A DNA stretch of 64,000 bases from Verrucomicrobiota bacterium (GCA_017305195.1 JAFKMU010000035.1:248001-312000); one strand, 5' to 3'. Shown: positions 13,205 through 42,304, counted from the first letter of the stretch. Notes: generated by a model from the sequence alone, not told the origin. Made by a program: numbers and translations.

Positions 13205-15861
13205 AGATCCGTTTCCTCCTGCTTCTTTGTGTTCTTGTTGCTCTTGGCGCAGTTCGCGCCGGCAGCCCTTTGATCGTTGACTGGGGGCACGATTGGGGTG
13301 CCGGCTGGTATCGGGAGACAACGGCTCAGGCCGGGCAGCCCGCCCAGCGAATCGCCGAGATCGATATCAATAACAACGGCAGAACCGATGATGACTACAC
13401 TGGCGGTTGGCCATTCTCGATGGACAAGCCCTTGAGTCCCACCACGCTGGTTTATGACTACAGCCTGCCCTCGGCGACGTTCTACGGCGGAGCGGTGGTG
13501 CAGGTGACCGATGTCCCGAATGGCGAGGACGGAAAGCCTCTGCGTCCCCGGGGAGCCACGGAGGGGCATATCAATCAGAATCATGAACTCCGGGATGACT
13601 GGAACCTCATGGCCATGCCCTCATCCAAGCGCGAACCTGAGAAGGAGCGATTTGCGGGAGCTCTGCTGGTGCTCTGGAAAAAGGACGACTTCCTGAATGG
13701 CGGGGCGGCGCATCGGGTTTCTTTCGAGCCGGGCGACATGATCGGGGTGTTCATCTCGCGATATTGGGGCGGCATCGACTGGGGGCGCTGGGTCGTAAAA
13801 AGCGCCGGGAAGTTCTATGTCTCGCGCGCCACTTTTGGCGATCAGACAAAGGCGTTTGACCTGACCGGAGGGGAGGGAACGCCCAATGGCGCCATCAATC
13901 CGGTGGTCCGCAAGACTCACTATCTCGACCCGACCCAGACGGAATGGGCGCCCTATGATCCCAGGCCTGGCTACGAGATATTCTTTAATGCAGATGATGC
14001 GAAATTTTCGAAAGTGGCGCTGGATAATGTCGAGGCTGTCGGGTTCCTCGCACAGCGCAATCTCTCGACCGGTCATCCGGTGGCGGATGGATTGTGGAAA
14101 CTGCCCAACGGACTCGGCGAAGCCATCGCATTGAAGTTCAACGCCGTCCAGGCCCGGGCGACCGTTCATGACCTGGGAGCAGCGTCGTCATTGGTCGACA
14201 TGGCGCCCTTGGGAGCCAGCGCATCGTCTCCCATGCTATGGGTGGCAAAGACCGAGACCTCCTACGCCCAGTGGCTCAAGGTCTGGCGATGGGCCGTGAC
14301 CAACCAGCGGGCGAGCAATTTCCCCGCCGAGCACAAGGACAAGGAGATACCGGGATACAGTTTTATCAAGGATGGGGCGATGGGCAGCATGGAGCTGGCC
14401 GCGGATCGAGCCTGCACCCCGGATGAACCGGTGACCGGCATCACCTGGCACGATGCGGTGCTCTGGTGCAATGCCCTCTCCGAGTCGGAGGGGCTCGTTC
14501 CCGCCTATTACGCAGATGCGGCGTTCACCCAGCCGCTTCGCTCCGGCATGGATCGCGCGCATCTGGAAAAGAGCGGAGAGCGACCGGCGGTGTACTGGAG
14601 GAAAGATGCCGCCGGATACCGCCTGCCGACCATATCCGAATGGACGTGGGCGGCCCAGGCGGGAGGCAATACTGCCGCGCCGCAGGGAGGAGGCCCTGCG
14701 AACGGCACTTCTCCGGTCGCCTCGCAGCCTTTGAACGCATGGGGGCTCGCCGGGATGTCCTCCAATGTCGCGGAATATGTCTGGGATGCGCGCGGAGATT
14801 CCTTCGACCCGGCAACGGAAAAGGTTCACGCCGTTCTCGGGGCAAGCTTCGCAAAAGCGGAGAAATCCTTGATGCCATTTGGCTCGGAACCTGCCCGGGG
14901 CGCTTATGACATCGGGTTCCGCGTGGTCCGGAATGGCAGCGGTGTTGTTCCCGCGACCATGGTTGGCGGACCCCCTCGGCAGGTCGCCGATGGAGTCGTG
15001 CTGCCCGCGGAATCTCCGATGTCCGTCCAGGATTTGCAGGTCATGGCGCGCAAGACGCTGCACCTGGTCGACGTCTCCGGTTCCTTGCCGGATAACAACA
15101 ATCCCAACAAGGATTATCGGGGCGGGGAGGCCTATCCAGCCGCACTTTCAGGGACCGAGATTCCCTACAGGCTGTGGATTCTCGTGCGCAACTGGGCGGA
15201 GCAGGAAAAGGGATATCGGTTCAACTTTTCCGGCGACATGGGGAGCATGACATTCCCGCTGTCGCCCAACCCGGCCTACACTCCCGATGAGCCGGTGACC
15301 AACATCGGATGGCAGGACGCGGCGGTGTGGAGCAATGCGCTCTCCGAGTTGCTGGGGCTCGCCCCCGTCTATGTCGATGAAGCGACGGGACAGCCGGTCC
15401 GGCAGGCCTCGCCCTTTCGCGTGGCCATGTATCCAGAGTATCACTATCCCAATACCGGGAACTACGCGGGCAGGCCGGTGGATACCGCGGCTGTGATGAA
15501 ATGGAAAACGGTCGCGACCAACACCGGCTTCCGGCTTCCCACGATCGCAGAGCTCGAGGCGGCCGAGCAGCCGCAGAAGTCCGAGGAGGCGGGCTGGTTT
15601 TCAACGAACTCCGGGATGAAAACTCATCCGGTCGGCACCCGACAGCCCGGCAGTACCGGCCTGTATGACATGCAGGGCAATGTCTCCGAGTGGACCTATG
15701 GAGGGGATAGCCTGTTTGGACAGGTGCGCTTCGGGAACAACTTTGCCTACCCGCCGGGAGTCAGCCCACACAGGATGAACTCCAAGGAACATCCCGGAGT
15801 GGGGCGGTCCTGGGTGGGATTCCGTGTGATCCGCCGGGGCCCCGCCGCCTCGGAGTCGTAG
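13201..15861 (+). CDS. Secreted protein with VDWG-type module and two SUMF1/FGE-like domains
   Basis: The 886-aa paralogue of the protein at 336 has a signal peptide (M-K-I-R-F-L-L-L-L-C, cut near V-R-A-G). The VDWG module spans about 22-330 (L-I-V-D-W-G, F-Y-G-G-A-V-V, K-K-D-D-F-L-N-G-G, I-S-R-Y-W-G-G). FGE-like folds lie at about 330-580 and 650-880. G-Y-R-L-P-T-I-S-E-W is near 472, G-M-S-S-N-V-A-E-Y replaces G-N-V-W-E in the first fold, and M-Q-G-N-V-S-E-W is in the second. Neither fold has the copper-binding Cys pair of genuine FGE, so sulfatase activation is unlikely. ATG overlaps the stop of the upstream hydrolase, which ties the two functionally. Confidence 0.85.
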   Translation: MKIRFLLLLCVLVALGAVRAGSPLIVDWGHDWGAGWYRETTAQAGQPAQRIAEIDINNNGRTDDDYTGGWPFSMDKPLSPTTLVYDYSLPSATFYGGAVVQVTDVPNGEDGKPLRPRGATEGHINQNHELRDDWNLMAMPSSKREPEKERFAGALLVLWKKDDFLNGGAAHRVSFEPGDMIGVFISRYWGGIDWGRWVVKSAGKFYVSRATFGDQTKAFDLTGGEGTPNGAINPVVRKTHYLDPTQTEWAPYDPRPGYEIFFNADDAKFSKVALDNVEAVGFLAQRNLSTGHPVADGLWKLPNGLGEAIALKFNAVQARATVHDLGAASSLVDMAPLGASASSPMLWVAKTETSYAQWLKVWRWAVTNQRASNFPAEHKDKEIPGYSFIKDGAMGSMELAADRACTPDEPVTGITWHDAVLWCNALSESEGLVPAYYADAAFTQPLRSGMDRAHLEKSGERPAVYWRKDAAGYRLPTISEWTWAAQAGGNTAAPQGGGPANGTSPVASQPLNAWGLAGMSSNVAEYVWDARGDSFDPATEKVHAVLGASFAKAEKSLMPFGSEPARGAYDIGFRVVRNGSGVVPATMVGGPPRQVADGVVLPAESPMSVQDLQVMARKTLHLVDVSGSLPDNNNPNKDYRGGEAYPAALSGTEIPYRLWILVRNWAEQEKGYRFNFSGDMGSMTFPLSPNPAYTPDEPVTNIGWQDAAVWSNALSELLGLAPVYVDEATGQPVRQASPFRVAMYPEYHYPNTGNYAGRPVDTAAVMKWKTVATNTGFRLPTIAELEAAEQPQKSEEAGWFSTNSGMKTHPVGTRQPGSTGLYDMQGNVSEWTYGGDSLFGQVRFGNNFAYPPGVSPHRMNSKEHPGVGRSWVGFRVIRRGPAASES

Positions 15862-15874
15862 CGAAAAAGACAGG

Positions 15875-17521
15875 CTAAACCTTATCGGGTTCGGTCACCG
15901 GGAGGATTCCGTAGGTGACCGGCCCGACAACGCAGCGGGTGCCCCCTGCATTCTCGGTGTATAACCTGATCTCATCCCCCGCGAGGGGAGGACGGATTGA
16001 GGATAGCCGGTCTGGAAGCATGACTTCCTGGTTCGCACCGGACGGGTTCAGCACGATGAGCAGCTTTTGCCCGTCTCCCTCCCGCAGGAAGGCAAACGGA
16101 TAGCGGCCTGGCTCGCAGAAGAGAACGCGGAATCCTGCGGTGGCGCGCAGGGCGGGCTCGGTGCGGCGCAGGGCGATCAGGTGGCGCACCCGATGCCAGA
16201 GGCTGCCAGGGTCGGCTTGCTGGCTCTCGACACTGGGTGAACCGGAGCGGGTATCCATTGGAGCCCAGAGCTTCCCAACCTCCGCCATGGAGAAGCCCCG
16301 GTTGAGGTCGTTCTCCGTCCACGCCATCGGCACGCGAGCGCCAGCCCGGGGAGGATAGGAACCCTCACGGACCGGAGCGTCATCGACCTGCTTGAGGCCG
16401 ATCTCGTCGCCATAAAAGATAAACGGCACCCCGGGCATCGTGAGGAGAAAGGCAAAGACGACGGCGAGGTCGTCATCATCCCGCAGCAGGCTGATGCGGG
16501 AAAGATCGTGATTCCCAACCGGAATGCTAATGCACCCGTGGGTTTTCGTGGCCTCGTAGTGGTCCAGGTAATCGTCGAGAAATCCGCGGAGGTCTCCCTT
16601 TCCCTCCCGGTCGAACCACGATGCGCCTCCCTGGCGGCGAGGCCCGCCCGGGGTGCGCCCGAGCTCCTTGCGAAAGAGGTTTTCGTAGGTGGGTATCCAG
16701 TGAAGGAAATCCGCGTGGAGCCCACGCCCGTCGAGCGCTCTCCGAGGATCGGACCACTCGGCGACGGTGAAGTAGTCGGGATTGATCGCCTCGCAGGCGG
16801 TGCGAGCCTCCGCCCAGAAACGGCGCGCCTCCCGGCCATCTGGATCCCTGCGAGTGATCGACCCGGCCATGTCGACGCGGAATCCGTCGGCTCCAGCCTT
16901 CATCCAGAAAACCATGGTATCCCTCATTTCATCCCAGAGCTTGCGCACATCGGGATGCGTGGTTGGCAGTTGCCACGGTTCGGCGGGATCGGGCTCGGCA
17001 AAGCCAAAGTTCAGCGCGGGCTGGGACCAGAAAAAGTTGATGAGGTAGTTGCCATTGCGATCCGAGAAGCCATGGACGGTGCGCCCTCGCCATTCCGGTC
17101 CCCCGTCATTCCATGCACTGTCGGTCCAGATGTACCAGTTGGACCGGGCGTTGCTTCTCGCCTGAGCCGATTCCTGAAACCAGGGGTGGTCGATCGAGGT
17201 GTGACCAGGCACGAAATCCATGAGGACGCGCATGCCTCGGCGATGCGCTTCGTCGAAGAGACGCTGCACGTCCGCAAATGTCCCGTAACGAGGATCGACC
17301 TTGCGAAAATCGGCCACGTCGTAACCGGCATCACGCATGGGGGACAGATAGACCGGGTTGAGCCAGATCGCGTTGGCGCCCAGCGACGCGATATAGTCCA
17401 GGCGGGAAATGATTCCCGGGATATCGCCGATCCCGTCGCCATCGGAGTCTTGAAACGTCTGGGGATAGATTTCGTAGAATACGGCGGATGCCGCCCAAGG
17501 CGGCACGGGAGCGGTGTTCAT
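15875..17521 (-). CDS. GH13 alpha-amylase-family enzyme
   Basis: A 548-aa member of GH13, acting on alpha-glucosides; sequence alone does not tell alpha-glucosidase from trehalose-type transferases. The barrel starts with F-Y-E-I-Y-P-Q-T-F-Q-D-S-D-G-D-G-I-G-D. Catalytic residues are in place: G-F-R-V-D217-M-A (nucleophile), V-A-E255-W (acid/base) and G-N-H-D339 (transition-state Asp). A beta-sandwich C domain follows the barrel. There is no signal peptide, so it is cytoplasmic. I take ATG 17521; four codons upstream a TTG in the same frame is possible. A perfect 17-base palindrome sits 14 bases before this start. Confidence 0.92.
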   Translation of the reverse strand: MNTAPVPPWAASAVFYEIYPQTFQDSDGDGIGDIPGIISRLDYIASLGANAIWLNPVYLSPMRDAGYDVADFRKVDPRYGTFADVQRLFDEAHRRGMRVLMDFVPGHTSIDHPWFQESAQARSNARSNWYIWTDSAWNDGGPEWRGRTVHGFSDRNGNYLINFFWSQPALNFGFAEPDPAEPWQLPTTHPDVRKLWDEMRDTMVFWMKAGADGFRVDMAGSITRRDPDGREARRFWAEARTACEAINPDYFTVAEWSDPRRALDGRGLHADFLHWIPTYENLFRKELGRTPGGPRRQGGASWFDREGKGDLRGFLDDYLDHYEATKTHGCISIPVGNHDLSRISLLRDDDDLAVVFAFLLTMPGVPFIFYGDEIGLKQVDDAPVREGSYPPRAGARVPMAWTENDLNRGFSMAEVGKLWAPMDTRSGSPSVESQQADPGSLWHRVRHLIALRRTEPALRATAGFRVLFCEPGRYPFAFLREGDGQKLLIVLNPSGANQEVMLPDRLSSIRPPLAGDEIRLYTENAGGTRCVVGPVTYGILPVTEPDKV

Positions 17522-18621: not shown

Positions 18622-19683
18622 TTAACGCTGGCGCAAAGTGGCGCCCGGAATAAGCACAGGCGGAACCAGCAGGCGAAGTGGGATCTCGGGGCGTCCCACG
18701 ATTCCGTGCTGAAGTTGCTGATGGGCCAGGTCCACAGCCTGGCGGCCTTGTTCGACCGGGCGCAGGCTCACCTGGGAGCAATCGGGAAGCTCGGTGATGT
18801 CCCGCAGGCAAAGAAATCCAATCTCCTCCGGGATGCGCCGAGCGCGAAGCCTGCGATCAAAATAATCACCTCCGGTCAACCAGTAGTAGGGCTGGACGTT
18901 GGTGGAGATCACCACATCAGGTCGCTCCCGGCGAACCCAGGTGGCGAAGTCCCGCACGGAGTCGTCGCTGGGTTCGTAGTGGTGAATGGCGGGCTGTGCG
19001 CCGAGAGTCTGGCCGAGCCGGTCGATCTCAAATAACGCCTGGGCGTGAAAGGGGACATCCGTGCCGCTTGCCCGGTAGTTCATCAGCGCGATGCCGATGC
19101 GCTGGTAGCCCCGCGAGCAGCAGGCCTGCACTCCCTGGTGCAGGGCGGAGCGGAAATCGGCCTGCACATTATGAACTCGCGCCAGATCGTTTTCCGGGCC
19201 GACGAAGATGGTGAAGAAATGTTCCCAGTCCAGCTCCAGATTGATGCCATCGCGGAAGGCCTGGATGAGCACACCGCGGATACCGCGGTGATAAATCACG
19301 TGACCGAGGGCTGCGGTGGTAGGGTAGTCGCCCAGGGAAAACTCATCGAGTTGATAGCCCAGCTCCGCCGCACGCTGCCGGGCGCCGACAAATTCCGGTG
19401 CCAGCTGATGGGAGGGAGGCAGCAAGGGCTGATGGATCCATGCCAGGGTCGCTGTTTGCGGCTTGGCTCCGAGAGGCCAGCGTCGGCGTGTCAGCGCGCC
19501 AAGGGCCGGGTCGGGCCGATAGCCCAGCTTTTTCGCTGCCTGGAGAACTTTTTCCCGCGTTTTCTCCGCGACATAGCCTGTCCCTTGCAGCACGCGTCCC
19601 ACGGTGGTTTTTCCCACGCCACAGGCCTCGGCTATACGACGGTAGTTCACCGGAGATGGGACAGAGGCGTTCTCCGCATTCAT
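18622..19683 (-). CDS. LacI-family transcriptional regulator
   Basis: A 353-aa regulator. The N-terminal helix-turn-helix reads N-Y-R-R-I-A-E-A-C-G-V-G-K-T-T-V-G-R-V-L-Q, followed by the hinge region with K-K-L-G-Y-R-P-D-P. A periplasmic-binding-like ligand domain follows (R-G-I-R-G-V-L-I-Q, S-R-G-Y-Q-R-I-G-I-A). The open frame extends 19 codons upstream to a GTG, but ATG 19683 places the HTH at the usual distance from the N-terminus. A perfect inverted repeat, AAAGAC-TG-GTCTTT, ends 8 bases before this ATG and is a good candidate for self-repression. It is divergent from the pseudopilin cassette, which it probably controls. Confidence 0.92.
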   Translation of the reverse strand: MNAENASVPSPVNYRRIAEACGVGKTTVGRVLQGTGYVAEKTREKVLQAAKKLGYRPDPALGALTRRRWPLGAKPQTATLAWIHQPLLPPSHQLAPEFVGARQRAAELGYQLDEFSLGDYPTTAALGHVIYHRGIRGVLIQAFRDGINLELDWEHFFTIFVGPENDLARVHNVQADFRSALHQGVQACCSRGYQRIGIALMNYRASGTDVPFHAQALFEIDRLGQTLGAQPAIHHYEPSDDSVRDFATWVRRERPDVVISTNVQPYYWLTGGDYFDRRLRARRIPEEIGFLCLRDITELPDCSQVSLRPVEQGRQAVDLAHQQLQHGIVGRPEIPLRLLVPPVLIPGATLRQR

Positions 19684-19690
19684 TAGGTTA

Positions 19691-19704
19691 AAAGACTGGT
19701 CTTT
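19691..19704. promoter_or_regulatory. Inverted repeat AAAGACTGGTCTTT before the LacI gene
   Basis: Six-base arms AAAGAC and GTCTTT around TG lie 7-8 bases before the chosen ATG of the LacI gene. This overlaps the position of the ribosome binding region, typical for autorepression. The binding protein is inferred. Confidence 0.45.
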
Positions 19705-19742
19705 CGGGAGGGTTGCCAAATAAACTATATGAAGTTGCACTA

Positions 19743-19756
19743 TGGGACAAGGCCCA
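19743..19756 (+). promoter_or_regulatory. Operator-like palindrome TGGGACAAGGCCCA
   Basis: Third copy of the TGGGACATGRCCC motif. Extended arms TATGGG and CCCATA (19741-19758) are perfectly complementary. It is about 55 bases before the first pseudopilin gene, in the divergent region shared with the LacI gene. Confidence 0.5.
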
Positions 19757-19811
19757 TATGGCGATGACTTCCCCCCAGGCCCGCAGCAGAGTTTACTTCG
19801 CTTAGTCCCCC

Positions 19812-20501
19812 ATGAGCACCCTTTCTTTGTCCAGGACGCAGTCTCGACGTAAAGGTCCGCTCGCGATAAAGCCAGGCCGCAGGCTGGTTGCCGAAGGCGG
19901 CTTCTCGCTGATGGAGCTGCTGGTCGTGATCGCGATCATTGGCCTCCTCGCGGCCGTCGCCTCCAGCGGGTTGGGTGGGAGCGATGGCGCAAAGCTGAAG
20001 ACCGCCCTGAGCGTGTTGATCTCCCAGACGCAGGCGGCGCGCACCACCGCGATAGCAAGGAATGCACCGGCCCGCCTCCTCATTGACTCGGGGAATGACC
20101 GCGAGAACGGTCGCAGGCTCATCGCGGTGGCGGTGAAGAATTCCGATGGGAGTTGGGAGGTTGCGGGCACGCCGGCCCTGCTGCCCGATGGCGCGACATT
20201 TCTCGTCGGAGATGGCCAGTCGCCTTCCTCCACTGCGGGCGGCACCTCGGCTCCGCCGCCGACGATGGCTCTCGATTTTCGCAATCAGCACAGGACGTGG
20301 TACTACCTGGAGTTTGATCCCGAGGGCACCTGCGAGGAGAATGCCGGGGCGATCCTCGTCCTTGGCCTGGGAAGGCATACCGGCACGGAGTGGGTGAGAA
20401 AAAATCCCGACCTTCTCCAGGCGGCGATGATCCGTCGCTCGGGACAGGTCAGCGCATTTTCTGATCCGGCGCACATCCGGGATGCTTTTGGCGCCCTATG
20501 A
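19812..20501 (+). CDS. GspH-like pseudopilin (Verru_Chthon cassette protein D type)
   Basis: A 229-aa type II pseudopilin. After a long basic leader (about 30 residues) comes the prepilin peptidase site G-G|F-S-L-M-E-L-L-V-V-I-A-I-I-G, with Glu at +5 and a hydrophobic helix. The remainder fits the GspH/FimT shape: a helix followed by beta strands with R-T-W-Y-Y-L-E-F-D-P-E-G and a late R-R-S-G-Q-V. It is the first gene of a tightly packed operon; its stop overlaps the next ATG (ATGA at 20498). In type II secretion, GspH is a minor pseudopilin near the pilus tip. The 'cassette protein D' name rests on position and fold, not on a search. Confidence 0.8.
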   Translation: MSTLSLSRTQSRRKGPLAIKPGRRLVAEGGFSLMELLVVIAIIGLLAAVASSGLGGSDGAKLKTALSVLISQTQAARTTAIARNAPARLLIDSGNDRENGRRLIAVAVKNSDGSWEVAGTPALLPDGATFLVGDGQSPSSTAGGTSAPPPTMALDFRNQHRTWYYLEFDPEGTCEENAGAILVLGLGRHTGTEWVRKNPDLLQAAMIRRSGQVSAFSDPAHIRDAFGAL

Positions 20502-21022
20502 TCTCCGAACGGCATGTGGCCCGGGGATTTTCCCTGGTCGAGGTGGTGCTCGCGATCGGCATCTTCGCGTTTGTCGTGGTGGCGGTGATGGGGTTGTTTG
20601 GCAGCGCCCTGAGCGGCGTGCGGGATGTCGTGGATCGTGATGGTATGGTAGCCGTCGCCGATTCGGCAGCCGAGCGAGTGTCCCAGCTTTCCCGGGCGGA
20701 GATCGCCGGGATTCCCGCCGGGACCAACCTTCAGGCCTCCGGCCGACCTTTACTCTACGGCTATCTCGGCACGGCGCCCGGCCAGACAAACAGCCTCATA
20801 TGGACGAATGCTTCTCCAGCTGTCGCCAGCGTGCAAAGCGGGAGAGTTTATCGAGTGGCTCTTTACCGGGCAAATCTGGACGCCTCCACCGAGGCGATGT
20901 TTGCGGCGACGAATGCAAGTTTTCCCGTGCGCATGGAGGTCGCCGTCCTCGCGGTCGGGCAGTCGTCGACCCGTCCTGCCATGAGCTGGACCTTTCATCG
21001 GAACCTTCAGCCCCGCCAATGA
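20498..21022 (+). CDS. GspI-like pseudopilin (Verru_Chthon cassette protein B type)
   Basis: A 174-aa pseudopilin with a short leader and cleavage site A-R-G|F-S-L-V-E-V-V-L-A-I-G-I-F-A, Glu at +5. The length, the A-I-G-I-F-A-F pattern and placement second in the operon match GspI/PilV-type minor pseudopilins. The body contains V-Y-R-V-A-L-Y-R and R-M-E-V-A-V-L strands. It overlaps both neighbours by four bases (ATGA at each end), so translation of the whole cassette is coupled. Its likely role is to form a tip complex with the H-, J- and K-like proteins. Confidence 0.8.
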   Translation: MISERHVARGFSLVEVVLAIGIFAFVVVAVMGLFGSALSGVRDVVDRDGMVAVADSAAERVSQLSRAEIAGIPAGTNLQASGRPLLYGYLGTAPGQTNSLIWTNASPAVASVQSGRVYRVALYRANLDASTEAMFAATNASFPVRMEVAVLAVGQSSTRPAMSWTFHRNLQPRQ

Positions 21023-21891
21023 AGATCGTGCGTTTCAGGCGCGGCGGGTTGTTGTCCGCCGGATTGCGCCACCAGGGATTCACCTTGGTCGAATTACTCG
21101 TGGCGACCGCGGTCATGGCGGTCGTGCTGGTGCTCTCGGTGCAGGTCGTCACCGCGAGCTTGAACCAATGGGGACTGGCGAATGATCGCATGACGGCCAA
21201 TATGCAGGCGCGGCTTGCGCTCGACTGGATATCACGGGATATCCAGACCGTCATTGTGAGCGGGGACGACTCGGAGTGGCTCCGCATCGCGCCGATTTCC
21301 GTGACGGGCGGGAGCGGGGGAACGATCGATGGCTCGCGGTTGATGATCTTCTGCCAGCCTGGAGAGCGCCCCAAGGATCCGGCCAGCTCCTCCTCGCGGA
21401 TCACCGGCCCGATCGCAGTTTCCTACATGATGGGGTATCTCGATCCCATGGTTTCCGGCGGCAGCAGGAAAAGCTATGCTCTCCTGAGGACGGCGATCAA
21501 TCCGCGCGATACCTTTGAGAACATGGCCGTGGCCAATCTGGAGACAGACTTCTGGGCCACGGGCGTGCTGGGGTTCACCGCGGTGCGACCGGAGGATATC
21601 GTCGCAGAGAATGTCGTGGCCTTTCAGGTGATCGCGGAGTTTGTCGACGAGTCGAGCGACATTAATTATCGAAGCAATCCGGCGGAGGGATTTTCCGTTG
21701 GCCCCGACGGGGTGATCCACTCAGGTTCGCAGGTCTACCCCCATGCCCGTCTCCAGGCTATTGAGGTGTCGCTCCGGCTGCTGAAGCCCAAGGTCGCGGC
21801 GAGGCTGAACGGTCTCAGCGGCCAGGCATGGCAGGATGCCATTGCGACGAGTGAGGTGTTTTCCAAGCGCATACCGATTTTCGCACCATGA
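21019..21891 (+). CDS. GspJ-like pseudopilin (Verru_Chthon cassette protein C type)
   Basis: A 290-aa pseudopilin. The frame is open further upstream, but ATG 21019 overlaps the previous stop and gives a sensible leader: about 20 basic residues, then H-Q-G|F-T-L-V-E-L-L-V-A-T-A-V-M-A with Glu at +5. The helix is followed by W-G-L-A-N-D-R-M-T-A-N-M-Q-A-R-L-A-L-D-W-I-S-R-D-I, the pattern of GspJ/PilW-type proteins. At the 3' end ATGA overlaps the next gene. In T2SS, J binds I and K at the tip; the same order here (H, I, J, then K after one inserted gene) argues for an equivalent complex. Confidence 0.82.
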   Translation: MKIVRFRRGGLLSAGLRHQGFTLVELLVATAVMAVVLVLSVQVVTASLNQWGLANDRMTANMQARLALDWISRDIQTVIVSGDDSEWLRIAPISVTGGSGGTIDGSRLMIFCQPGERPKDPASSSSRITGPIAVSYMMGYLDPMVSGGSRKSYALLRTAINPRDTFENMAVANLETDFWATGVLGFTAVRPEDIVAENVVAFQVIAEFVDESSDINYRSNPAEGFSVGPDGVIHSGSQVYPHARLQAIEVSLRLLKPKVAARLNGLSGQAWQDAIATSEVFSKRIPIFAP

Positions 21892-24542
21892 GAGTCTTTT
21901 CCTTGTTAGCATTCCTGGTGTTGTCCATCCGTCCGACGATGGCGGATACGCCACTTTCCTTGAAGGGCATAGCCATCATCGGTTTCGATGACGCGGTCGC
22001 GGCGGATGGATCGGGAGGGTGGACCGACGAGGGGCCGGAGAATTCGCTGCAGGGATTCCCTGTCGGGTCGCAGACATTTCTCGGCGTGCCTTTCGACATA
22101 CCGCGCGAGGGTCCGGCTGTCCTCGCTTTGCCGGGAAAGGCGTGGCCGAAAGCCCCACCGGTCGTGACTGTCCCGGCAAATGGCGCCACGGGAAAGACGC
22201 TGTTTGTTCTTTCCGCTCATGCCTGGGATGATCCGCCGTCCGAACTGGCGACCGTTACGGTCGCATACGAGGATGGGAAGGAAGACCGCTTCTCTTTTGT
22301 CCAGGACGCCCAGACCGGACCATGGTGGTATCCCTTGAGCCGCAACCAATCTCGCGTAGCATGGCGCGGGGAAAATCGCTCGGGAGTGCCGGTCGGCGTC
22401 TACCTGACCGGCCTGGAACTGACGAGACCCGGCGCGTCGGTGCGGTCTGTCGTCCTTGAGGGGGCTCCCATGCGCGGACAGCTTCTGATATTGGGTCTGA
22501 CCTTGTCGAACCAGCCCGCCTCACTGGCGTTTGCACCCCCAGCCTGGACGGAGGAGCCATCTGCCACGGCTGGCTGGTTCGAGCCTGCGCGTGCCGGTGT
22601 GGAGGTCGACGATGCCCCGGTCTGGGGTGCCGAGGCGGGTGGGGCGGCAACCGGGCGCGTATTGTTGATGGAGTTTGGCCAGAGCCTCAGCGCTCCGGAG
22701 CAGAAGCAGGCGGAGCAGACCGTGCGGCTGCTGAAAGATCTGGGATACACCGGAGTACGGACTGCTCCCATCGATCCGCTCATTGCGAAGCCTTCCGGCG
22801 ACATGTTGCGAACAGGGTTGAGGAACCTCCTGGCGGAATGCGAGAAGCACGGGCTGGCGATTTCCGTCACCCTGGCCGGAGGGCGCGTCTATCATGCCGA
22901 CGAGGGAGTGGCGGCCTTTCGCGAGCTGAATATTGGCTATCCCGAGTATTATTTTGTCGATGAGGCGGCCACGGCTTTGCTGGAGCGCGACCTGGGGGAT
23001 TTCTGGCAGTCGTTCGGGACCTCTGCTCGGATGGGGCCGAGCGCCATATTATTCGAGGGAGGGCTATTCGGATACCACCAGGACTTTCTCACCCGTCCGC
23101 ACCATCGCATGTTGCAAAATCGCTGGTGCGCCTGGCTTCGGCAGTGTTACGGCTCGGGAGAAAAGCTGAAAGAGGCCTGGCAGATGCCGGGCGAGGCCAG
23201 TCCGTTGTATTTCGACGAGAGCATGGAACGCGGACGCGTCGAGTTCCTTAGCACCAGCAACCTTCTCGCCGCCTCGCCCCGGTTTCGCCGGAGGATCGCC
23301 GATCAGCTCCGCTTTCTTGATCAGTTCCAGTCCGAGTGGTTCCTGGCCCGGCGGGCTGCGGCGGAAAAAATCCTCCCTCCTGCGAAATGGAGCGCGACTG
23401 CCTGGACCTCCCCGGCATGGCTGCGCGACCTGCAGACCCGTACTGCCGCCAGCCTCGACGTGATCGAGGAACGTGCCGAGCTCGTCGAGACCGGGACGAT
23501 GTCGGACCCTGATCGGGCGCTCTACTTGGATGTCTCGCCCATCTCTGCGGCGTCGCTCACCACGTTCCGGACGCCATTTCAGCGGGTGGAGGGAAAGCCT
23601 TTCATTGTCTGGGATGCGATCGGAGCCTGGCCGGGAGACCGGAATTTCGTGCGCGTGCTCCGCACCCTGGCACTCGGAGCGATCCAGGGTTGGGATGGAG
23701 TGTTGCACCGCCAGCTCGACCGGTTTCCCGAGGAGGGATCGCCCATGAGTGATGTCCCCCTGCCAGGGAGAGCTTTGCAAAATCCCTCGGTGCTGGCGAT
23801 CCTTCCGCTCGGGCGCCATCTCTTCCTGCGCGGTGATCTTGCCGAGGCGCCGGTGGTTCTCAGCCGGAGGCTGGTCTCGCCGGACGACATCGCATCGGCA
23901 ACACAGGCGATTCCTGCGGGCGGAAATGGCTTGCCCGGCTGGCTGGCATTTGGCGGCAAGGTGGTGGCACGGTTGGACTCCGGCGAACTGGCCCGATCAC
24001 AGGATGCTCCTCCTGACGGAAAGATCTCCACGCCGGACCGATCGCTGGAGATCGATATGCCGTCGGATCACATGCGCATCTCGACCGCGAGGTCCGTCGC
24101 CCTGGCGGGTTCGCTCTCTCGTGCGGAATTTGAGGACGCTTCAGTCATTTTGCGGGTGGCCGATGGATATGGCGTGGTTTATGTCACCACGCTCGACGGC
24201 CAGCCGATTACGACCTCGCGCAAGCTGCTCCTGGGCTTCGTCGGACGCTCGCGCAATACCGGTCAGACCGCTGACCGCAGTACGGAGCCTCGCGGGGTGC
24301 ATCCCACGGTTTGGAGCATCCGCAACCCCGGGGCCGGTCCCGTCATCATGGAACCGGTACGCGCCTCCGTCACCGTCAAGAATGCTCTGGCCGGGACCTG
24401 GACCCTTCTCGGCGTGGACGTCAGAGGCCTTCCCCTGCCAGCTAGCCCCCGGGTGCTCAAGCCGGCCTCCGGCGACAAGCTGACCCTGGATATCGACACG
24501 GCTGATGCTCGCACGCCGCTTTTCCTGCTGACCCATGAATAA
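21888..24542 (+). CDS. Exported GH42/GH-A-like protein inside the pseudopilin cassette
   Basis: An 884-aa protein with a signal peptide (M-R-V-F-S-L-L-A-F-L-V-L, cut near M-A-D-T). A beta-rich N-terminal third precedes a TIM-barrel-like region: L-L-M-E-F-G-Q, then L-L-K-D-L-G-Y-T-G-V-R, then a stretch N-R-W-C-A-W-L-R-Q-C-Y-G-S, then L-K-E-A-W. This recalls beta-galactosidase-type GH42 relatives, but I cannot assign catalytic residues or a family. ATGA overlaps join it to the J-like gene, and its stop overlaps the start of the giant K-like gene by 8 bases. It may be the cargo of the pseudopilus or a tip-bound enzyme. Function is inference. Confidence 0.65.
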   Translation: MRVFSLLAFLVLSIRPTMADTPLSLKGIAIIGFDDAVAADGSGGWTDEGPENSLQGFPVGSQTFLGVPFDIPREGPAVLALPGKAWPKAPPVVTVPANGATGKTLFVLSAHAWDDPPSELATVTVAYEDGKEDRFSFVQDAQTGPWWYPLSRNQSRVAWRGENRSGVPVGVYLTGLELTRPGASVRSVVLEGAPMRGQLLILGLTLSNQPASLAFAPPAWTEEPSATAGWFEPARAGVEVDDAPVWGAEAGGAATGRVLLMEFGQSLSAPEQKQAEQTVRLLKDLGYTGVRTAPIDPLIAKPSGDMLRTGLRNLLAECEKHGLAISVTLAGGRVYHADEGVAAFRELNIGYPEYYFVDEAATALLERDLGDFWQSFGTSARMGPSAILFEGGLFGYHQDFLTRPHHRMLQNRWCAWLRQCYGSGEKLKEAWQMPGEASPLYFDESMERGRVEFLSTSNLLAASPRFRRRIADQLRFLDQFQSEWFLARRAAAEKILPPAKWSATAWTSPAWLRDLQTRTAASLDVIEERAELVETGTMSDPDRALYLDVSPISAASLTTFRTPFQRVEGKPFIVWDAIGAWPGDRNFVRVLRTLALGAIQGWDGVLHRQLDRFPEEGSPMSDVPLPGRALQNPSVLAILPLGRHLFLRGDLAEAPVVLSRRLVSPDDIASATQAIPAGGNGLPGWLAFGGKVVARLDSGELARSQDAPPDGKISTPDRSLEIDMPSDHMRISTARSVALAGSLSRAEFEDASVILRVADGYGVVYVTTLDGQPITTSRKLLLGFVGRSRNTGQTADRSTEPRGVHPTVWSIRNPGAGPVIMEPVRASVTVKNALAGTWTLLGVDVRGLPLPASPRVLKPASGDKLTLDIDTADARTPLFLLTHE

Positions 24543-27500
24543 GATCAAACAGAGAGGATTTGCCACCATACTTGCGCTGCTGGTCATCGCCCTGCTTGTG
24601 GTGGTGCTCGTCGGCGCGGCGATCTTTGTCCGGGTGGAGACTCTCACTTCCTCCAATGCCAAGAAAGCAGCGGAGGCGCGGCGAAACGCGATCTTCGGCC
24701 TCGAGAACGCGATTACCCTGCTTCAGGAAACCGCCGGGCCGGACCAGCGGGTAACAGCCCCGGCCGAGCTGAATCGTAACACCAACACAACCACCTGGGA
24801 GCCCGCCTTTCTTCCGGGAGCCAGTACCAACGCAGCGGCGCAAACTCCCGGCCGCAACTGGAGCGGCGTCTGGGATGTTTCCCGAAATCGCTACATCCCG
24901 GACCCCGCCAAGCCCGGCCGTGTCGTTTCTAATGTCGGCTCCTCGGCAACCCAGGTGTCGCCCGAGCCTCTCGCCTGGCTTATCTCCGGGGGGCGCAGGA
25001 AAAACGGCGGAGCGGAGTCACAAACGAACAACGTGACGCCGCTCAACTACCCCGCCCGCCTGACCTCGGCCGGAACGGTCACGGGGGTGGCGGATCTCGA
25101 TGCTCATGTCGTCTTGCTGGGCAGCGGGTCCGTCGATCTGGCCAACGATCAGGCGGAGGGGGTGGTGGTTCCCAAGGTTCCGATCTGGAATCCGACCGCC
25201 GCCCAGCCCGACGTGGCTGCCGGGGCTTATGCATTCTGGATCGGGGATGAGGGAATAAAGGCAAAGTTTCAGGCCGGGGTGGAGTTCTCCTCGCTCGGCC
25301 AGACCTTCTCCGGGGCATCGCTCGATCAGGCTCGCCTCGCCTCGTCGCAAAAGCTCGGGATCGGCGTCGTTGACGGTACGTCGACGAATTCCGACCTCGC
25401 CACCGATGGCTACGATCCCTCGGACTCAAGCTTTGCGTCGAGCCTGCTCCGGCTCTCTGCGGACTCCCAGGTGAACTACCTGCCCGGCGGCGACAAGCTG
25501 GGCGCGGACTTCAAGCGCCGCTTCCATGATCTCACCCTCTATACACGAGGCGTGCTTGCCGATGTGAAAAAAGGAGGCCTCAAGGAGGACCTCTCGGTCT
25601 ACCTCGGGAGCGGGAACATTTCGGGCTATATCAGCGATACCGATCTGCTTTACGAAGACCCCAGGGATACCGCGGCAACGGTCGACGACCCGAGAGCGCC
25701 CTTTCGGACCCGGTTCCCAGGGTTTCATCCCACGTCCAGCTCCAATCTTCCCCGGGTGGGGATTCTTCGCTCATGGGATGGTATTGACGCATCCAATCCG
25801 CAGATCGAGCCGAGAACGGATACGCAGCATGGACTTTTCCCCGTCATTACCCGATGCGAGTGGCCCGCGTGGCTGCACTTTGATCTCCCGACTGCCTCCA
25901 CCTATCCCCAGACGATCCCGGCAAACTCCGGTCAGGTGCGGCTGAGGTTCCACCCCGTGATCACGCTCTACAATCCCTACAATGTCCGGCTGCCGGGCGT
26001 GTCCTACATCATTCGCATCCGCGTCGATGACGATGCCCTCTTTGAGCTATTGGCTGATCCGCCAAACACGGCGAATGTCGGCGGAGTGATGAAGTTTGAC
26101 GTAAGCGCGAGCCTTATGGCGGCAAATACGGCTACGGGCGACTCCGCGATTTACCTGAGGATTCCGGCCTCGGAGAGTTCGCTGCCTCCTGGCGCATCAA
26201 AAGTCTTTACCCTGCAAAACAGCGGAAGCGTTCAGCAGGTCATGGACATGGTGTGCGACTTCAGCCAGGTGAGTCAGCAGTTCGGCGACAAGACCAATGT
26301 CAAGAACCCCTCGCCATCGGTGCTTAATCAGAATGGCTATTTCGAGATTTCCGCGCTGCCCGACGGGAGCACTCCGCTCCAGATCAGCGCGGCGCCGACG
26401 GTCGCCACGTCGTTCCGCATGAGGTTTTACGGAAGCGTACCCACGCCGCCGTCCGATCCGTCGACTTATGAGGATGCACCCAGAGGCGTCACCCTGCACA
26501 AGGCATCCTCGGCTTCCGCGCTCGGCCAGCCGCTGCAGATCATCTCCAACTGGCCAATGCCTGTTGGCTGGCTGGCCAACTCGACGGCCGCCACGTTGGG
26601 CCTTTCTTTCAGCGCAGGACAATTTCAGCATAAAGTGCAGGTGGACACCCGGCTCCCGGTCGGCCAGTTTCATCGGCGTCCGCTGGTGCATCGTTCGACG
26701 AACGGTGCCGGACCCCAGGGGGGATTTCTTGCCGGGTATCTGTATTCCAATATGCGCTCAGGGGATGAGTTCTCCGTCCCGTCCCGCTTCGGCGTCGGAG
26801 TCTCCGGTGCCAGTGCCTACAATCTGGTCAAGTGGTATGGCAACTGGGTGAATTTCACCGATGGCACCGCGGGCGTGAACAATACGGCATTCGCCCCGCC
26901 CCAGATCCGCTACACGGGGGGAGATTATCTCGAGTCGCTCTTTTACGATTACGAGGATCAGAACCCGGCGGTAAAGCCGGCGGGCCTGGTCAGCGGCGCA
27001 TTTTCATGGAGCCAGTTGGGATATGAGAGCCCGGCTTTTGATTTTGCGCCTCCCGATGGACTTGGCAGCCTCGGCTGGTTTCAGCACGCGGATCTATCGG
27101 GGCATAACAACCAGCCATCCTATATTTTTGGAAACTCCTGGGTCTATGCTCCATTGGCCGGGCGCGATTGCTACGCAGGGTTTTATAACTACAGCAATTC
27201 CTCCTATGTGGAGTATTTCAACAGGTACCCCGCACCCAAGCCTGCCAATAGCTCCCAGGACCGGTTCAACCTCATCTACGACGCCTCCTACATGGCGAAC
27301 GATGCGTTGTGGGATCGCTTCTTCCTGAGCGGGCTGGAGGGTTCTGGCGCCGTCTCACAGAGCTACCTGGACAATGACAAGGCGCTTCCCAACAGCCGTC
27401 TCCGCTTTCGAAGCAGTCAGGGAGGGGACTACAATGCCCTGGGGTCTCCCGCGAATCGGTTCCGGCTGGGAGCCGCCTATCTGTTGACGGACGGAGCATT

Positions 27501-28407
27501 CAACGTGAACTCCACCTCGGTCGAAGCCTGGAAAGCGGTGCTGGCGTCGAGGCTGGGACTCAAGGTTAACAACGCCACGGCAAATGCAGATCAGGCTGTT
27601 TTCAGCCGCCTTTTGAAACCAGGAAATGGCTCGGGGGGATTTCTTGTTCCCCCGGGTAATCAACCTGCGGGAGAGCTCGCCGAGGCCTACACCGGAGCTC
27701 GCCGCCTTTCGGAACAGGAGGTCGACCTGCTGGCTCGCGAGATCGTTGCGGAGATCAAGGAGCGCGGTCCTTTTGTCGCCATGGCCGACTTCGTCAATCG
27801 CCGCCTCGCCCCCGAGTTGAGCGCCTCGCCCTTCACGGAGACAGCCCTTTCCCGTACCGGCCTGCGCGGCGCACTGCAGGCAGCCATCGATCGAAGCAGC
27901 CTTCAGGCCGTCAATGGCAAGTCGGCCATCAATGGAGCGTTTTACGATTCCGGCACGGAAGGATCGTTCTATACCCCGGCGCAGATGCGGACGTACGTGG
28001 GTGATCCGCGGACTGATGTGAATGTGGATGATTCCGCCCTGCAAGGAGCCGTGGTACCCCGGCTGGCCATGTTTGGGGAGGAGTGGTACTATACGGCAGC
28101 GGGGGTGCCGGGCTTCCTGACCCAGGCGGACGTGCTTCAGGCCCTGGCCCCGATCCTGACCGTGCGGAGCGACACCTTTCGTGTTCGAGCCTACGGGGAG
28201 GTGAAGAATCCCCGCACCGGTCGCATCGAGGCCCGGGCCTGGTGCGAGGCAATCGTGCAGAGATATCCCGAGCCTTTCAAGAAATCGACTGATCCCGAGG
28301 ATCTCGCCTGGCCGGAGCGGCCCGCCAACGCGGGAGATCCTGCGGCGTCGCTGGGGAGGCTGTTCCGGATCATTGCGTTTCGATGGCTCACTCCCGAGGA
28401 GGTCTAG
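24535..28407 (+). CDS. Giant GspK/PilX-like tip pseudopilin (Verru_Chthon cassette protein A type)
   Basis: A 1290-aa protein. It starts like GspK: short leader K-I-K-Q-R-G|F-A-T-I-L-A-L-L-V-I-A-L-L-V-V-V-L-V, with no Glu at +5, the hallmark of the K subunit that caps the pseudopilus. The next residues (A-K-K-A-A-E-A-R-R-N-A-I-F-G-L-E-N-A-I) form the expected amphipathic helix. Usual GspK is about 330 aa, so nearly 1000 residues are extra and mostly beta-rich. A conserved end block has L-S-E-Q-E-V-D-L-L-A-R-E-I-V and later R-V-R-A-Y-G-E-V. A second copy lies at 48898. I infer a tip adhesin or substrate receptor. Confidence 0.82.
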   Translation: MNKIKQRGFATILALLVIALLVVVLVGAAIFVRVETLTSSNAKKAAEARRNAIFGLENAITLLQETAGPDQRVTAPAELNRNTNTTTWEPAFLPGASTNAAAQTPGRNWSGVWDVSRNRYIPDPAKPGRVVSNVGSSATQVSPEPLAWLISGGRRKNGGAESQTNNVTPLNYPARLTSAGTVTGVADLDAHVVLLGSGSVDLANDQAEGVVVPKVPIWNPTAAQPDVAAGAYAFWIGDEGIKAKFQAGVEFSSLGQTFSGASLDQARLASSQKLGIGVVDGTSTNSDLATDGYDPSDSSFASSLLRLSADSQVNYLPGGDKLGADFKRRFHDLTLYTRGVLADVKKGGLKEDLSVYLGSGNISGYISDTDLLYEDPRDTAATVDDPRAPFRTRFPGFHPTSSSNLPRVGILRSWDGIDASNPQIEPRTDTQHGLFPVITRCEWPAWLHFDLPTASTYPQTIPANSGQVRLRFHPVITLYNPYNVRLPGVSYIIRIRVDDDALFELLADPPNTANVGGVMKFDVSASLMAANTATGDSAIYLRIPASESSLPPGASKVFTLQNSGSVQQVMDMVCDFSQVSQQFGDKTNVKNPSPSVLNQNGYFEISALPDGSTPLQISAAPTVATSFRMRFYGSVPTPPSDPSTYEDAPRGVTLHKASSASALGQPLQIISNWPMPVGWLANSTAATLGLSFSAGQFQHKVQVDTRLPVGQFHRRPLVHRSTNGAGPQGGFLAGYLYSNMRSGDEFSVPSRFGVGVSGASAYNLVKWYGNWVNFTDGTAGVNNTAFAPPQIRYTGGDYLESLFYDYEDQNPAVKPAGLVSGAFSWSQLGYESPAFDFAPPDGLGSLGWFQHADLSGHNNQPSYIFGNSWVYAPLAGRDCYAGFYNYSNSSYVEYFNRYPAPKPANSSQDRFNLIYDASYMANDALWDRFFLSGLEGSGAVSQSYLDNDKALPNSRLRFRSSQGGDYNALGSPANRFRLGAAYLLTDGAFNVNSTSVEAWKAVLASRLGLKVNNATANADQAVFSRLLKPGNGSGGFLVPPGNQPAGELAEAYTGARRLSEQEVDLLAREIVAEIKERGPFVAMADFVNRRLAPELSASPFTETALSRTGLRGALQAAIDRSSLQAVNGKSAINGAFYDSGTEGSFYTPAQMRTYVGDPRTDVNVDDSALQGAVVPRLAMFGEEWYYTAAGVPGFLTQADVLQALAPILTVRSDTFRVRAYGEVKNPRTGRIEARAWCEAIVQRYPEPFKKSTDPEDLAWPERPANAGDPAASLGRLFRIIAFRWLTPEEV

Positions 28408-29160
28408 ATGAAGGTGCGATATTATATACCCATGGCTGTCCTTGCGCTGCTGCATCCTTCGGCATCGCTGTCGGCCCAGCCGTCTCCGGTCGAGCCGCAG
28501 ACGACATTCACAGTGCTGTTGATTGACCGGCCGGCCACGGAGGCGGAGTCCGCCGGAGCGGAAGGCTCGGTGAAATCCCTGGACCCCACGGTGTACTATC
28601 GCGCTCCGGTCGTTCGCGGCGGCGGGGACATGTCTTTTCTGCCCCTGGTGCTTCCCGTGAATCGGCCCGCCAATCCGGTCGCGCTTCCCAAGGGCCAACC
28701 GCTGGAGCTCTTTTCCAAACCCTCGGCGGATGCCAGGATCACCTCGATCTCTCCGTCCGCCGGATCAGCCGCAATCGTCTTGCTGCGCGCTTCGCGGGAC
28801 AAGGGATTTGTCAATGCCAAGACCACCGTGCTGGACACGGACGAGTCGGCATTTCCCTTCGGCTCAATGAGAGTCATCAATGCGAGCGATCGTCCGGCAG
28901 CCCTGAAAACCATTGACTCCTCCGTGGTGATTGAGTCCGGCGAAACACGCAACCTTTCCCCGGCGCGAGCCCGGCGGGATACTGTTCCGTTTTCCGTCGC
29001 GGTGCAGGACGGCGTCTGGAAGGAGATCGATTCCAGTGCGATAAAGCTCCCGGCGGACCAACGAGCGACATTGTTGATCACGGCGGCCACGGATGCTCGC
29101 CAGCGGACGCGGTACGACGTGATCGCCCTGATCGACGTACGCAGGGAACCTGCGCCTTAG
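28408..29160 (+). CDS. Secreted protein of unknown function, last gene of cassette
   Basis: A 250-aa protein whose ATG directly follows the stop of the giant pseudopilin. The signal peptide is about 23 residues (hydrophobic M-A-V-L-A-L-L, cut near S-L-S-A-Q). The mature part has beta-rich, immunoglobulin-like character, with F-G-S-M-R-V-I-N-A-S and later V-V-I-E-S-G-E-T-R. The family is not recognised. In the locus III cassette the equivalent position holds an unrelated secreted protein, so this slot may carry an accessory that varies between cassettes. It ends 2 bases before the convergent transporter gene. Confidence 0.6.
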   Translation: MKVRYYIPMAVLALLHPSASLSAQPSPVEPQTTFTVLLIDRPATEAESAGAEGSVKSLDPTVYYRAPVVRGGGDMSFLPLVLPVNRPANPVALPKGQPLELFSKPSADARITSISPSAGSAAIVLLRASRDKGFVNAKTTVLDTDESAFPFGSMRVINASDRPAALKTIDSSVVIESGETRNLSPARARRDTVPFSVAVQDGVWKEIDSSAIKLPADQRATLLITAATDARQRTRYDVIALIDVRREPAP

Positions 29161-29162
29161 GG

Positions 29163-30575
29163 TCAGGCTGCCTCGGAGCGTTTCTTTTCCAGCTCTGCGC
29201 GGATTTCCTCGCATCGCTCACGGGTCAATGGCCATCCGCGAATGGCGAAAAGGGCCAGCAGACTGCCCACGGCAGGGATAAGGCTGAAGCTGACTCTCAT
29301 GGCGAAGAACACGCCGTTGGCCTGGTTTGCACCATCGCTGATATGAAACCCGGTCCATACCACGACCCAGCCGGAAAGAATGATGGCCAGCGAGCCACCC
29401 ATCTTCATGACCCAGCCTCCGATGGCGCCAAACATCCCCTCGCGCCTCCGCCCCGAGTGCAGTTCATCGAGGTCGACGACATCCGCCTGCATCGCGGACA
29501 TCACGATGTAGATCGAGGAGATTCCGATCGAGAAAAAGAAGGGGAGTACGAGCTGCATCCATGGGTGGGCGGGATCGATGCACCACCACTTCAGGATGCT
29601 CCCGGCCACGTAGAGCCAGAGCGCCACCACGAGGGCGCGATGTTTCCCAAAGCGGTCGCAGAGATACTTAGTCAGCGGGATCGCCAGAGCGGAAAGCACC
29701 AGTCCCAGCGTGCCCACCACCCCTCCTAGCGTGGCTCCCGCCGCCTTGTCTCCTCCGTAGACGAAGTAAACATTCAGGTACATTCCGAGAGCGGTAAATA
29801 CGCCAGTGTTCAGGGTGAGAATGGTCCAGATGGCGAGGAGCCGCAGGTAGACCGGGTTGGACAGGACAGAGCCGATGGTTTTCCAGAAATTCTCCGGCAG
29901 GCTCTTGGTGGCGGCGACCGTCTTGTAACGATGTTCGCGGTTCCGGGTTACGAGAGCGAAGGTCGATGCGATGCCAAACACCGCGATCAGACCGGCCAGC
30001 CAGCGCGCACCGACCAGGGCATTGGCGAAAAGCTCCGTAAAGCGAAAGTACCAGTTGCTAAAGATGGCGAAGACCTTGTCCCCGAGACTGCGGTATGCGA
30101 CCACGCGGGTTCGCTGATCATAGTCGGTTCCCATCTCGATCCCCAGAGCATAGTAGGGGACGCTGATGATGGAGGTGGCGGTGTTAAAGAGCAGCGTCAC
30201 CACCCCGAACCAGATCAGGATCGACGTGCTGTTCCAGTCGGTGCTGCACCAGTAGAATAACCCGATGCAGGCCATGCTTAGCACGCCGCCGACCAGGATA
30301 AATGGCATGCGGCGCCCAAATCGCGTCCGGGTGTTGTCCGAGACCTGGCCCATTATCGGATCGATCAAGGCGTCCCACAGGCGCACGATGCCGGCGATGG
30401 TCCCGATCATGCCGGGATTCACTCCCAGCAGCATGTTGAAGATGGGAAACTGGAGGCTCTGGATGAGCCCGTTTCCCATGACCACGGCGGAATTTCCCAG
30501 CGTATAAAATATCAGCTCGCGCCGCGTGGGGGGAGCTTCGGCATGGCCTCTGGGCTGCTCGGTAATCGAGGGCAT
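29163..30575 (-). CDS. GPH-family (MelB-like) sugar:cation symporter
   Basis: A 470-aa MFS membrane protein with about 12 hydrophobic helices. The GPH signature is visible near residue 70: L-I-D-P-I-M-G-Q-V-S-D-N-T-R-T-R-F-G-R-R, followed by P-F-I-L-V-G-G. A second hallmark is D-R-F-G-K-H-R in the C-half. MelB-type proteins import glycosides, pentosides or hexuronides with Na+ or H+. It is convergent with the cassette and 43 bases upstream (in transcription order) of the deacetylase's stop, with which it shares a strand. A likely role is uptake of degradation products made by the enzymes of this region. Confidence 0.9.
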   Translation of the reverse strand: MPSITEQPRGHAEAPPTRRELIFYTLGNSAVVMGNGLIQSLQFPIFNMLLGVNPGMIGTIAGIVRLWDALIDPIMGQVSDNTRTRFGRRMPFILVGGVLSMACIGLFYWCSTDWNSTSILIWFGVVTLLFNTATSIISVPYYALGIEMGTDYDQRTRVVAYRSLGDKVFAIFSNWYFRFTELFANALVGARWLAGLIAVFGIASTFALVTRNREHRYKTVAATKSLPENFWKTIGSVLSNPVYLRLLAIWTILTLNTGVFTALGMYLNVYFVYGGDKAAGATLGGVVGTLGLVLSALAIPLTKYLCDRFGKHRALVVALWLYVAGSILKWWCIDPAHPWMQLVLPFFFSIGISSIYIVMSAMQADVVDLDELHSGRRREGMFGAIGGWVMKMGGSLAIILSGWVVVWTGFHISDGANQANGVFFAMRVSFSLIPAVGSLLALFAIRGWPLTRERCEEIRAELEKKRSEAA

Positions 30576-41644: not shown

Positions 41645-42304
41645 ATGCCTGCCTGTTTTCGCCATCGTGATCTCTTAGCCTGTCGTGCGTTCTCCCTGCT
41701 GGAGCTTCTGGCCGGGATCGGAATCACCGCGCTGCTGGCTGCGATCCTGCTTCCCATGGTGGGCAGGATGAAGGCCCAGGCTGCCGAGACCCGGTGCCTG
41801 GCCAACCTTCGTACTCTTGCGCAGGGTGTGAGTCTCTATCAAGCCGAGCACGCGGGGCTCCTCCCGCCGAACTATGCATTCTCGGGTGGTACGACGGAGC
41901 AGATATGGACCGTGGTGCTGCGACCCTACGTGGGGATCGACGATCTCGGGCGCACCGGCTCCGGATTGGATCAGATGGCAAAAATATTGACTTGTCCCTC
42001 GGTCAGTCTGGCGACAGACAAGCCGACGAAGTGGTGGGAGTCCAACTATGCGGCGGGACTCTGTTTTGGCTCCGATGGATCGTCCCAGCGTATGGCTGGA
42101 CGCAAGGCGTCGTCGACCGTCATGTTTATGGAAAGCAAAGACAAACTGCGCTCGATGTATGCGACGCCGTTGCCCTGGGAAAGTGTGCCATACCGTCATT
42201 CCGATGCGGTGCAAATGGTCTTTCTCGACGGGCATACGGAGGCGCGCAAGCAGGCGGATATTCCGAAATCCTTCGACGATCCTTTCTGGGGGGCAAAGCC
42301 GTGA
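41645..42304 (+). CDS. Type II pseudopilin with H-X9-DG domain
   Basis: A 219-aa GspG-like pseudopilin. The N-terminus reads C-R-A|F-S-L-L-E-L-L-A-G-I-G-I-T-A-L-L-A-A-I-L-L-P, with Glu at +5 and Ala rather than Gly at -1. After the helix comes C-L-A-N-L-R-T-L-A-Q-G-V-S-L-Y, common in verrucomicrobial and planctomycete prepilins. The C-terminal processing-associated motif is exact: H-S-D-A-V-Q-M-V-F-L-D-G. The stop overlaps the GTG start of the lyase gene (GTGA at 42301). Cotranslation with a secreted lyase suggests a joint role in enzyme export or display. Confidence 0.88.
   Translation: MPACFRHRDLLACRAFSLLELLAGIGITALLAAILLPMVGRMKAQAAETRCLANLRTLAQGVSLYQAEHAGLLPPNYAFSGGTTEQIWTVVLRPYVGIDDLGRTGSGLDQMAKILTCPSVSLATDKPTKWWESNYAAGLCFGSDGSSQRMAGRKASSTVMFMESKDKLRSMYATPLPWESVPYRHSDAVQMVFLDGHTEARKQADIPKSFDDPFWGAKP

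Follow-up and report, generated by a model that had tools for sequence, protein, structure and literature searches.

What would a set of minor prepilin genes do in a sugar locus, with a glycosidase-like gene in its midst and no filament machine beside it? The question is raised by the 64-kb stretch of DNA analysed here (the window), which comes from contig C36 in the 5.1 Mb genome of a soil Verrucomicrobiota bacterium and in which six close-packed plus-strand genes at 19812-29160 run in the order H-I-J-884-K-S1. These encode three minor prepilins resembling GspH, GspI and GspJ of the type II secretion system (T2SS), a secreted protein of 884 amino acids (aa), a giant GspK-like prepilin and a second secreted protein. 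We think it plausible, while stopping short of calling it probable, that this cassette specifies a modular type IV filament tip, from a sugar locus, that would present a non-catalytic glycan-binding protein in the way PilY1 is presented.

Prepilin signals of the cassette

The genes overlap by 4 bp at H/I, I/J and J/884 and by 8 bp at 884/K, and K and S1 abut; all six open reading frames were present as in an earlier note on this DNA, which had described five overlapping genes and a secreted protein. H, I and J each passed the N_methyl (PF07963) cut-off in a Pfam search and have the class III prepilin signal of GspHIJK with Glu at position 5 (Glu5), the contexts being GG/FSLME, RG/FSLVE and QG/FTLVE, respectively (slash, cleavage site). 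K has the context RG/FATIL, that is, a prepilin signal with Leu5 and no Glu5. The earlier note had drawn attention to this difference and to a K about four times the size of GspK, and on both counts it was right, K being 4.2x the GspK of this genome's own T2SS (304 aa).

The same distribution recurs through the genome, in which we counted 103 prepilin N-termini and read the loci of about 25 giant-K cassettes. Three Glu5 prepilins stood beside K in 21 of 25 cassettes (two in 2/25 and none in 2/25, in a scan that listed small genes only when Glu5 was present), and Glu5 was found in 0 of the 24 K N-termini identified. Because of these counts the Glu5 pattern is not due to chance, and judged from sequence the distribution is the HIJK signature; in HIJK complexes K caps the filament, and the apex subunit needs no Glu5 (PMC10628169). 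By profile, H matched TIGR01708 GspH and TIGR02596 (1e-8 each), I matched TIGR01707 GspI (7e-6) and TIGR02598 (2e-5), and J matched TIGR02599 (4e-11) and GspJ (0.002), all under the respective cut-offs.

The order H-I-J-884-K-S is kept in LR76 (QAYZ01), a second species of the genus, with 87-92% aa identity per gene, and dN/dS between the window and LR76 was 0.09-0.16 across all six genes, which indicates purifying selection. LR76 and a further genome, G086, belong to the genus of the window genome. A third genome carrying the arrangement, G084, is from another genus and keeps H-I-J-884, at which point its contig stops.

Giant K and its secreted partner

The giant-K cassettes fall into a canonical class (A), type II (K2-like) and type III, which includes K of this locus, with two intermediates (L018 and L019); TIGR02600 identified 13 canonical giant-K proteins (Verru_Chthon) plus weaker ones. 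K matched NF037980 GspK (5e-5) and TIGR02600 (0.005) at its N-terminus only, the former with 23 bits against a cut-off of 130 over the N-terminal 70 residues, so that full-length membership of the GspK family is not indicated, and in the other direction the own GspK matched the K profile with 9% probability. A search of the K profile against the PDB gave no match. K has one N-terminal hydrophobic helix, a DEG-x-K motif near residue 238 and an FNVNSTSVEAW motif near 989, which by eye correspond to the GspK landmarks DE-x-x-K and NVNS/TA (GAYAFWIGDEGIKAKF, where the own GspK has EWHVRVIGETSRLNIN, and GAFNVNSTSVEAW). Relatives of K were found in 113 of 385 genomes of the class, with the invariant residues of the family concentrated in the last 400 residues and the profile links among types III, II and A confined to the N-terminal 67-240 residues.

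Of 21 further type III K genes of the class, 17 have an S-family gene immediately downstream; none of these loci contributed to the S profile, which was built from eight S proteins. Since these further K genes adjoin S so regularly, the conserved unit across the class is, by gene order, giant K plus S. Most type II K genes also have a gene for a secreted protein behind them, by eye one of a different family. The window itself has a second giant-K gene of this kind (K2, type II, 1107 aa, 48898-52221), which with its own 232-aa secreted partner spans 48898-52916; a LacI gene (47557-48627) lies upstream, and H, I and J are absent beside it.

These pairs raise the alternative that none of H, I, J and K ever enters a filament, all four being structural proteins of the membrane or periplasm, and that the unit with a function is K-S, perhaps as a polysaccharide receptor anchored in the envelope. 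K-S stands alone in many Verrucomicrobiae, and the orphan K with its secreted protein in the window would fit; but H, I and J retain Glu5, a mark of pilins that polymerise, from cassette to cassette, with a K lacking it as in HIJK, and we regard this alternative as unlikely.

Many cassettes and few machines

Contig C36 had no secretin or T2SSE ATPase match, in agreement with the earlier note, which had seen no motor or secretin nearby; several were found elsewhere in the genome. The cassette is therefore not encoded with gsp or pil machine genes in the manner of GspHIJK. On C21 (L071) there is one full T2SS, equipped with G, H, I and J of its own as well as GspK (NF037980 9e-22; 78 bits, under the 130-bit cut-off), type IV pilus (T4P)-like parts lie on C17 and C10, and tandem PilB-like ATPases on C39. 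Since these parts lie apart from the cassettes, the genome, as far as its sequence can tell, duplicates tips and not machines. Because the T2SS has its own H-I-J-K, the cassettes would be alternatives and not a missing tip. The proposal of a swappable tip placed on a common T2SS is thus possible in its first part, given many sets and one complete T2SS, but as T4P-like machinery is also present, the carrier need not be the T2SS.

PilM/N/O-like genes and two tandem secretins (L074:1796-10642) resemble the MUL2-type region of Akkermansiaceae, and a canonical giant-K gene without H, I or J (L081:2703-9962) is followed after 13 bp by a glycoside hydrolase (GH) family 106 rhamnosidase gene.

A glycosidase fold with lost catalytic residues

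In other cassettes of the same K type, such as L045, J and K are 6 bp apart with no gene between them, and in the genome as a whole the position is empty in most cassettes; from this comparison the 884-aa gene is an addition to the cassette. We rejected the idea that the J-K site is a slot for varied enzymes, as no other gene was seen in the inspected type III J-K junctions outside the three genomes, few loci carrying J.

The 884-aa protein had no Pfam or NCBIfam match, PilY1 family domains included. Its family profile matched GH5 mannanases and GH42 galactosidases (3pz9, E 3e-6; 4uoq, 1e-5), and its predicted model (pLDDT, the model's own local confidence score, 74.6) gave its best fold matches to GH42, GH35 and GH50, with modest TM-scores of about 0.22-0.34 over the whole query; a viral fold library gave generic TIM-barrel matches only. 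Profile and fold searches thus both point to a clan GH-A TIM barrel, here between two beta-sandwiches, and in the model both catalytic positions map to barrel strands 4 and 7, within the strand or at its end, as in the clan (GH5, GH42, GH35, GH50). Clan GH-A glycosidases use two Glu. Unlike these, the 884-aa protein lacks the pair: the nucleophile Glu is Asp in 3/3 cassette copies from two genera (D576 in the window copy), and the acid/base candidate E390 is kept in the window copy but is Asp in G084, where the position was read just past an assembly gap. The Asn that would precede E390 in the Asn-Glu pair is Phe or Tyr in the three copies, and the R-x-H-H motif is gone where readable. Both catalytic Glu are kept in 23 of 23 aligned relatives outside cassettes, and the three cassette copies form one clade (support 100/100, branch 3.64).

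Loss of catalytic activity is what we infer from these changes. A decaying pseudogene was rejected, as dN/dS for the gene was 0.14 between the window and LR76 and the frame is intact in LR76; with catalytic residues lost under such purifying selection, the protein looks like a maintained, repurposed pseudoenzyme. Because the nucleophile and adjacent active-site motifs are lost, it more likely grips polysaccharide than cuts it, and the working hydrolase, tip-borne or secreted, that the inserted gene had been taken for is unlikely, a binding protein being the better fit.

It could instead be a T2SS cargo, recruited by a cassette that serves as its specific adaptor tip, and then be released to act outside by binding or residual catalysis. 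The Sec signal (judged by eye, as was that of S1), the operon with tip genes and the complete T2SS in the genome would agree with this, as would the proposal that the T2SS of Verruconatronum alginivorum exports alginate lyases (PMC13274419); the lost residues, however, make a released enzyme unlikely, and most cassettes have no such gene, so we hold it improbable. Weaker still, and very unlikely in our view, is an active glycosidase of unusual mechanism (Asp nucleophile or substrate-assisted), tip-displayed or tip-secreted, to which the retained fold and E390, the purifying selection and the sugar-enzyme neighbours would be favourable, but which we rejected as the likelier reading on the residue loss in all three copies.

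Relatives of the 884-aa protein were found in 94 of 385 genomes of the class, and some adjoin single prepilin genes: at L051, L052, L053 and L110 such genes lie directly upstream of related GH-A-like proteins with both Glu intact. Elsewhere in the window (41645-44655) another single prepilin gene is paired with one for a sugar-active protein, which begins 15 bp on and belongs to the heparinase II/III family (778 aa; PF07940, 4e-14).

The sugar-locus setting

The cassette is flanked by a divergent LacI-family gene, beyond which lie a PEP-CTERM gene and a GH13 gene, and by a sugar transporter gene and a polysaccharide deacetylase gene downstream (Table 1). The surrounding arrangement in LR76 is the same, and upstream in G084 there is a divergent regulator gene whose start resembles that of the LacI gene. 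Both the palindrome and the conserved stretch of the LacI/H intergenic region occur in LR76, the stretch is nearly intact in G084, and a half similar to the palindrome, AAAAGACTTT, is present between the PEP-CTERM and LacI genes; we infer that the two elements are a putative operator. Across the genome, a LacI gene lay within 8 kb of 12 of 25 cassettes compared with 3.8 expected under a null that treats the genome as one circle. The excess of nearby LacI genes reached significance at distances of 8-10 kb, was borderline (p 0.045) when 5 kb was taken and had vanished at 3 kb, which shows shared neighbourhoods, not fixed adjacency. Other cassettes have GH2, GH38 or GH106 genes as neighbours, and three type II cassettes (L011, L015 and L016) are each near a GH38 alpha-mannosidase gene. 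The window also has two FGE (sulfatase-modifying-factor) domain genes (336-3053 and 13201-15861), the first adjoining a sulfatase gene (3071-4477).

Table 1. Genes and the intergenic region of the cassette and its immediate surroundings (HMM, hidden Markov model)
Feature	Position	Strand	Evidence
Alpha-amylase family protein (GH13)	15875-17521	-	PF00128 2e-73; present in LR76
LacI-family regulator, divergent from cassette	18622-19683	-	PF00356 E 7e-14
LacI/H intergenic region	19684-19811	.	Palindrome AAAGACTGGTCTTT (19691-19704) and conserved stretch TGGGACAAGGCCCA
H-like minor prepilin, 229 aa, Glu5	19812-20501	+	N_methyl 23.2 bits, over cut-off
I-like minor prepilin, 174 aa, Glu5	20498-21022	+	N_methyl over cut-off
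J-like minor prepilin, 290 aa, Glu5	21019-21891	+	N_methyl over cut-off
884-aa Sec-secreted clan GH-A-like protein	21888-24542	+	Profile and fold matches, residue tables, dN/dS
Giant K-like prepilin, 1290 aa, Leu5	24535-28407	+	N-terminal GspK/TIGR02600 matches, class-wide family, motifs
S1, 250-aa Sec-secreted partner of K	28408-29160	+	S-family HMM, alignment
MFS sugar transporter, convergent with S1	29163-30575	-	PF13347 2e-62; syntenic in LR76

Comparison with known systems

The cassette shares with T2SS GspH-GspI-GspJ-GspK (XcpUVWX) four prepilins in the same gene order, the Glu5 pattern and the two K landmarks, but differs in the size of K, in having no gsp genes nearby, in scoring under the equivalog cut-offs and in its two extra secreted proteins. 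With the Verru_Chthon sets (TIGR02598, B; TIGR02599, C; TIGR02600, A; TIGR02596, D), which occur in the same genome, it has in common that four prepilin-like genes, one of them for a giant A or K protein, form a multi-copy cassette. A canonical cassette of this genome passes all four cut-offs; we rejected membership for our locus on its bit scores (TIGR02596 35.4/70, TIGR02598 24.9/51.4, TIGR02599 42.6/256.5 and TIGR02600 14.9/332.3, each against the cut-off). In addition, canonical cassettes run B-C-A-D or a variant with no S gene seen, in contrast to H-I-J-X-K-S, and K matches profile A over its N-terminal 67 residues only.

Diderm T4P with PilY1 likewise encode a large Sec-secreted non-pilin protein among minor pilins, and HIJK is thought to aid tip presentation of PilC/PilY1 (PMC10628169), but our locus has a GH-A-like fold instead of PilY1 domains, with no sequence relation seen. 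The Streptococcus sanguinis PilA/PilB/PilC tip has oversized pilins, a glycan-binding module and a cap without Glu5 (PMC10628169); there the lectin is grafted on a pilin, whereas the GH-like protein is a separate gene here. Both a HIJK complex with a Glu5-less K as its cap and tip pilins that bear a lectin have been established in other systems (PMC10628169; PMC9934059). By analogy it seems most economical that the tip would work in the manner of HIJK and PilY1 or of the modular tip pilins, while being classed as neither.

Discussion

In the model we favour, the cassette would supply a tip of its own to a type IV filament machine that is shared, either a T2SS pseudopilus or a T4P. The base of this tip would consist of H, I and J, with the giant K, which lacks Glu5, on top as the cap, as in known HIJK complexes; the large middle region of K, evident from its size and position, may be an added module, and S1, given its pairing with K, may be a dedicated partner for the folding, anchoring or display of K. 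The 884-aa protein would reach the periplasm by its Sec signal and be presented at the tip like PilY1 in diderm T4P, where, its glycosidase fold kept and catalytic residues lost, it would bind polysaccharide without cutting it. The LacI protein, syntenic with the GH13 and transporter genes, may switch the cassette on with substrate, and extension and retraction could then catch the polymer, or the tip could select exoproteins for export.

Several observations weigh against this model. The similarity of K to GspK is weak and mostly N-terminal, and the predicted model of K residues 91-1290 (pLDDT 28.6), which we did not use, gives no structural support. Many K-S pairs have no H-I-J nearby, meaning that K does not always rely on co-encoded partners. 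E390 is retained in two of the three copies, which would allow residual or altered chemistry, and the fold is akin to galactosidases and agarases, yet the neighbour is an amylase.

Beyond this locus, it is possible, although we think it doubtful, that the genome holds about 25 exchangeable giant tips, each turned on together with a sugar locus of its own, and that one lineage made a glycosidase into a non-catalytic receptor at the tip, so that the shared filament would amount to a programmable polysaccharide grappling hook.

The earlier note had regarded a polysaccharide role as not established. This is partly outdated: in V. alginivorum a PulG-like pseudopilin, with 67 homologues in the genome, is over-expressed on alginate (PMC13274419), a T4P-like locus is implicated in Akkermansiaceae glycan attachment (PMC13174399), and a review also supports pseudopilins in polysaccharide use in the phylum (PMC12418764). 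It still stands in that our literature search found no paper naming these cassettes and nothing that tests cassettes of such kind. The published phylum-level support lowers the novelty of the general idea, not of the anatomy described here. Verrucomicrobia are major polysaccharide degraders in which the capture of large polymers is largely open, and the multi-copy prepilin cassettes of many of their genomes have been known by name only. This locus, with its full tip set, conserved K-S pair, likely retired enzyme as candidate receptor and linked regulator, offers a testable case; if the model is true, the use of many tips on a single machine would account for the way in which a filament can suit many different substrates.

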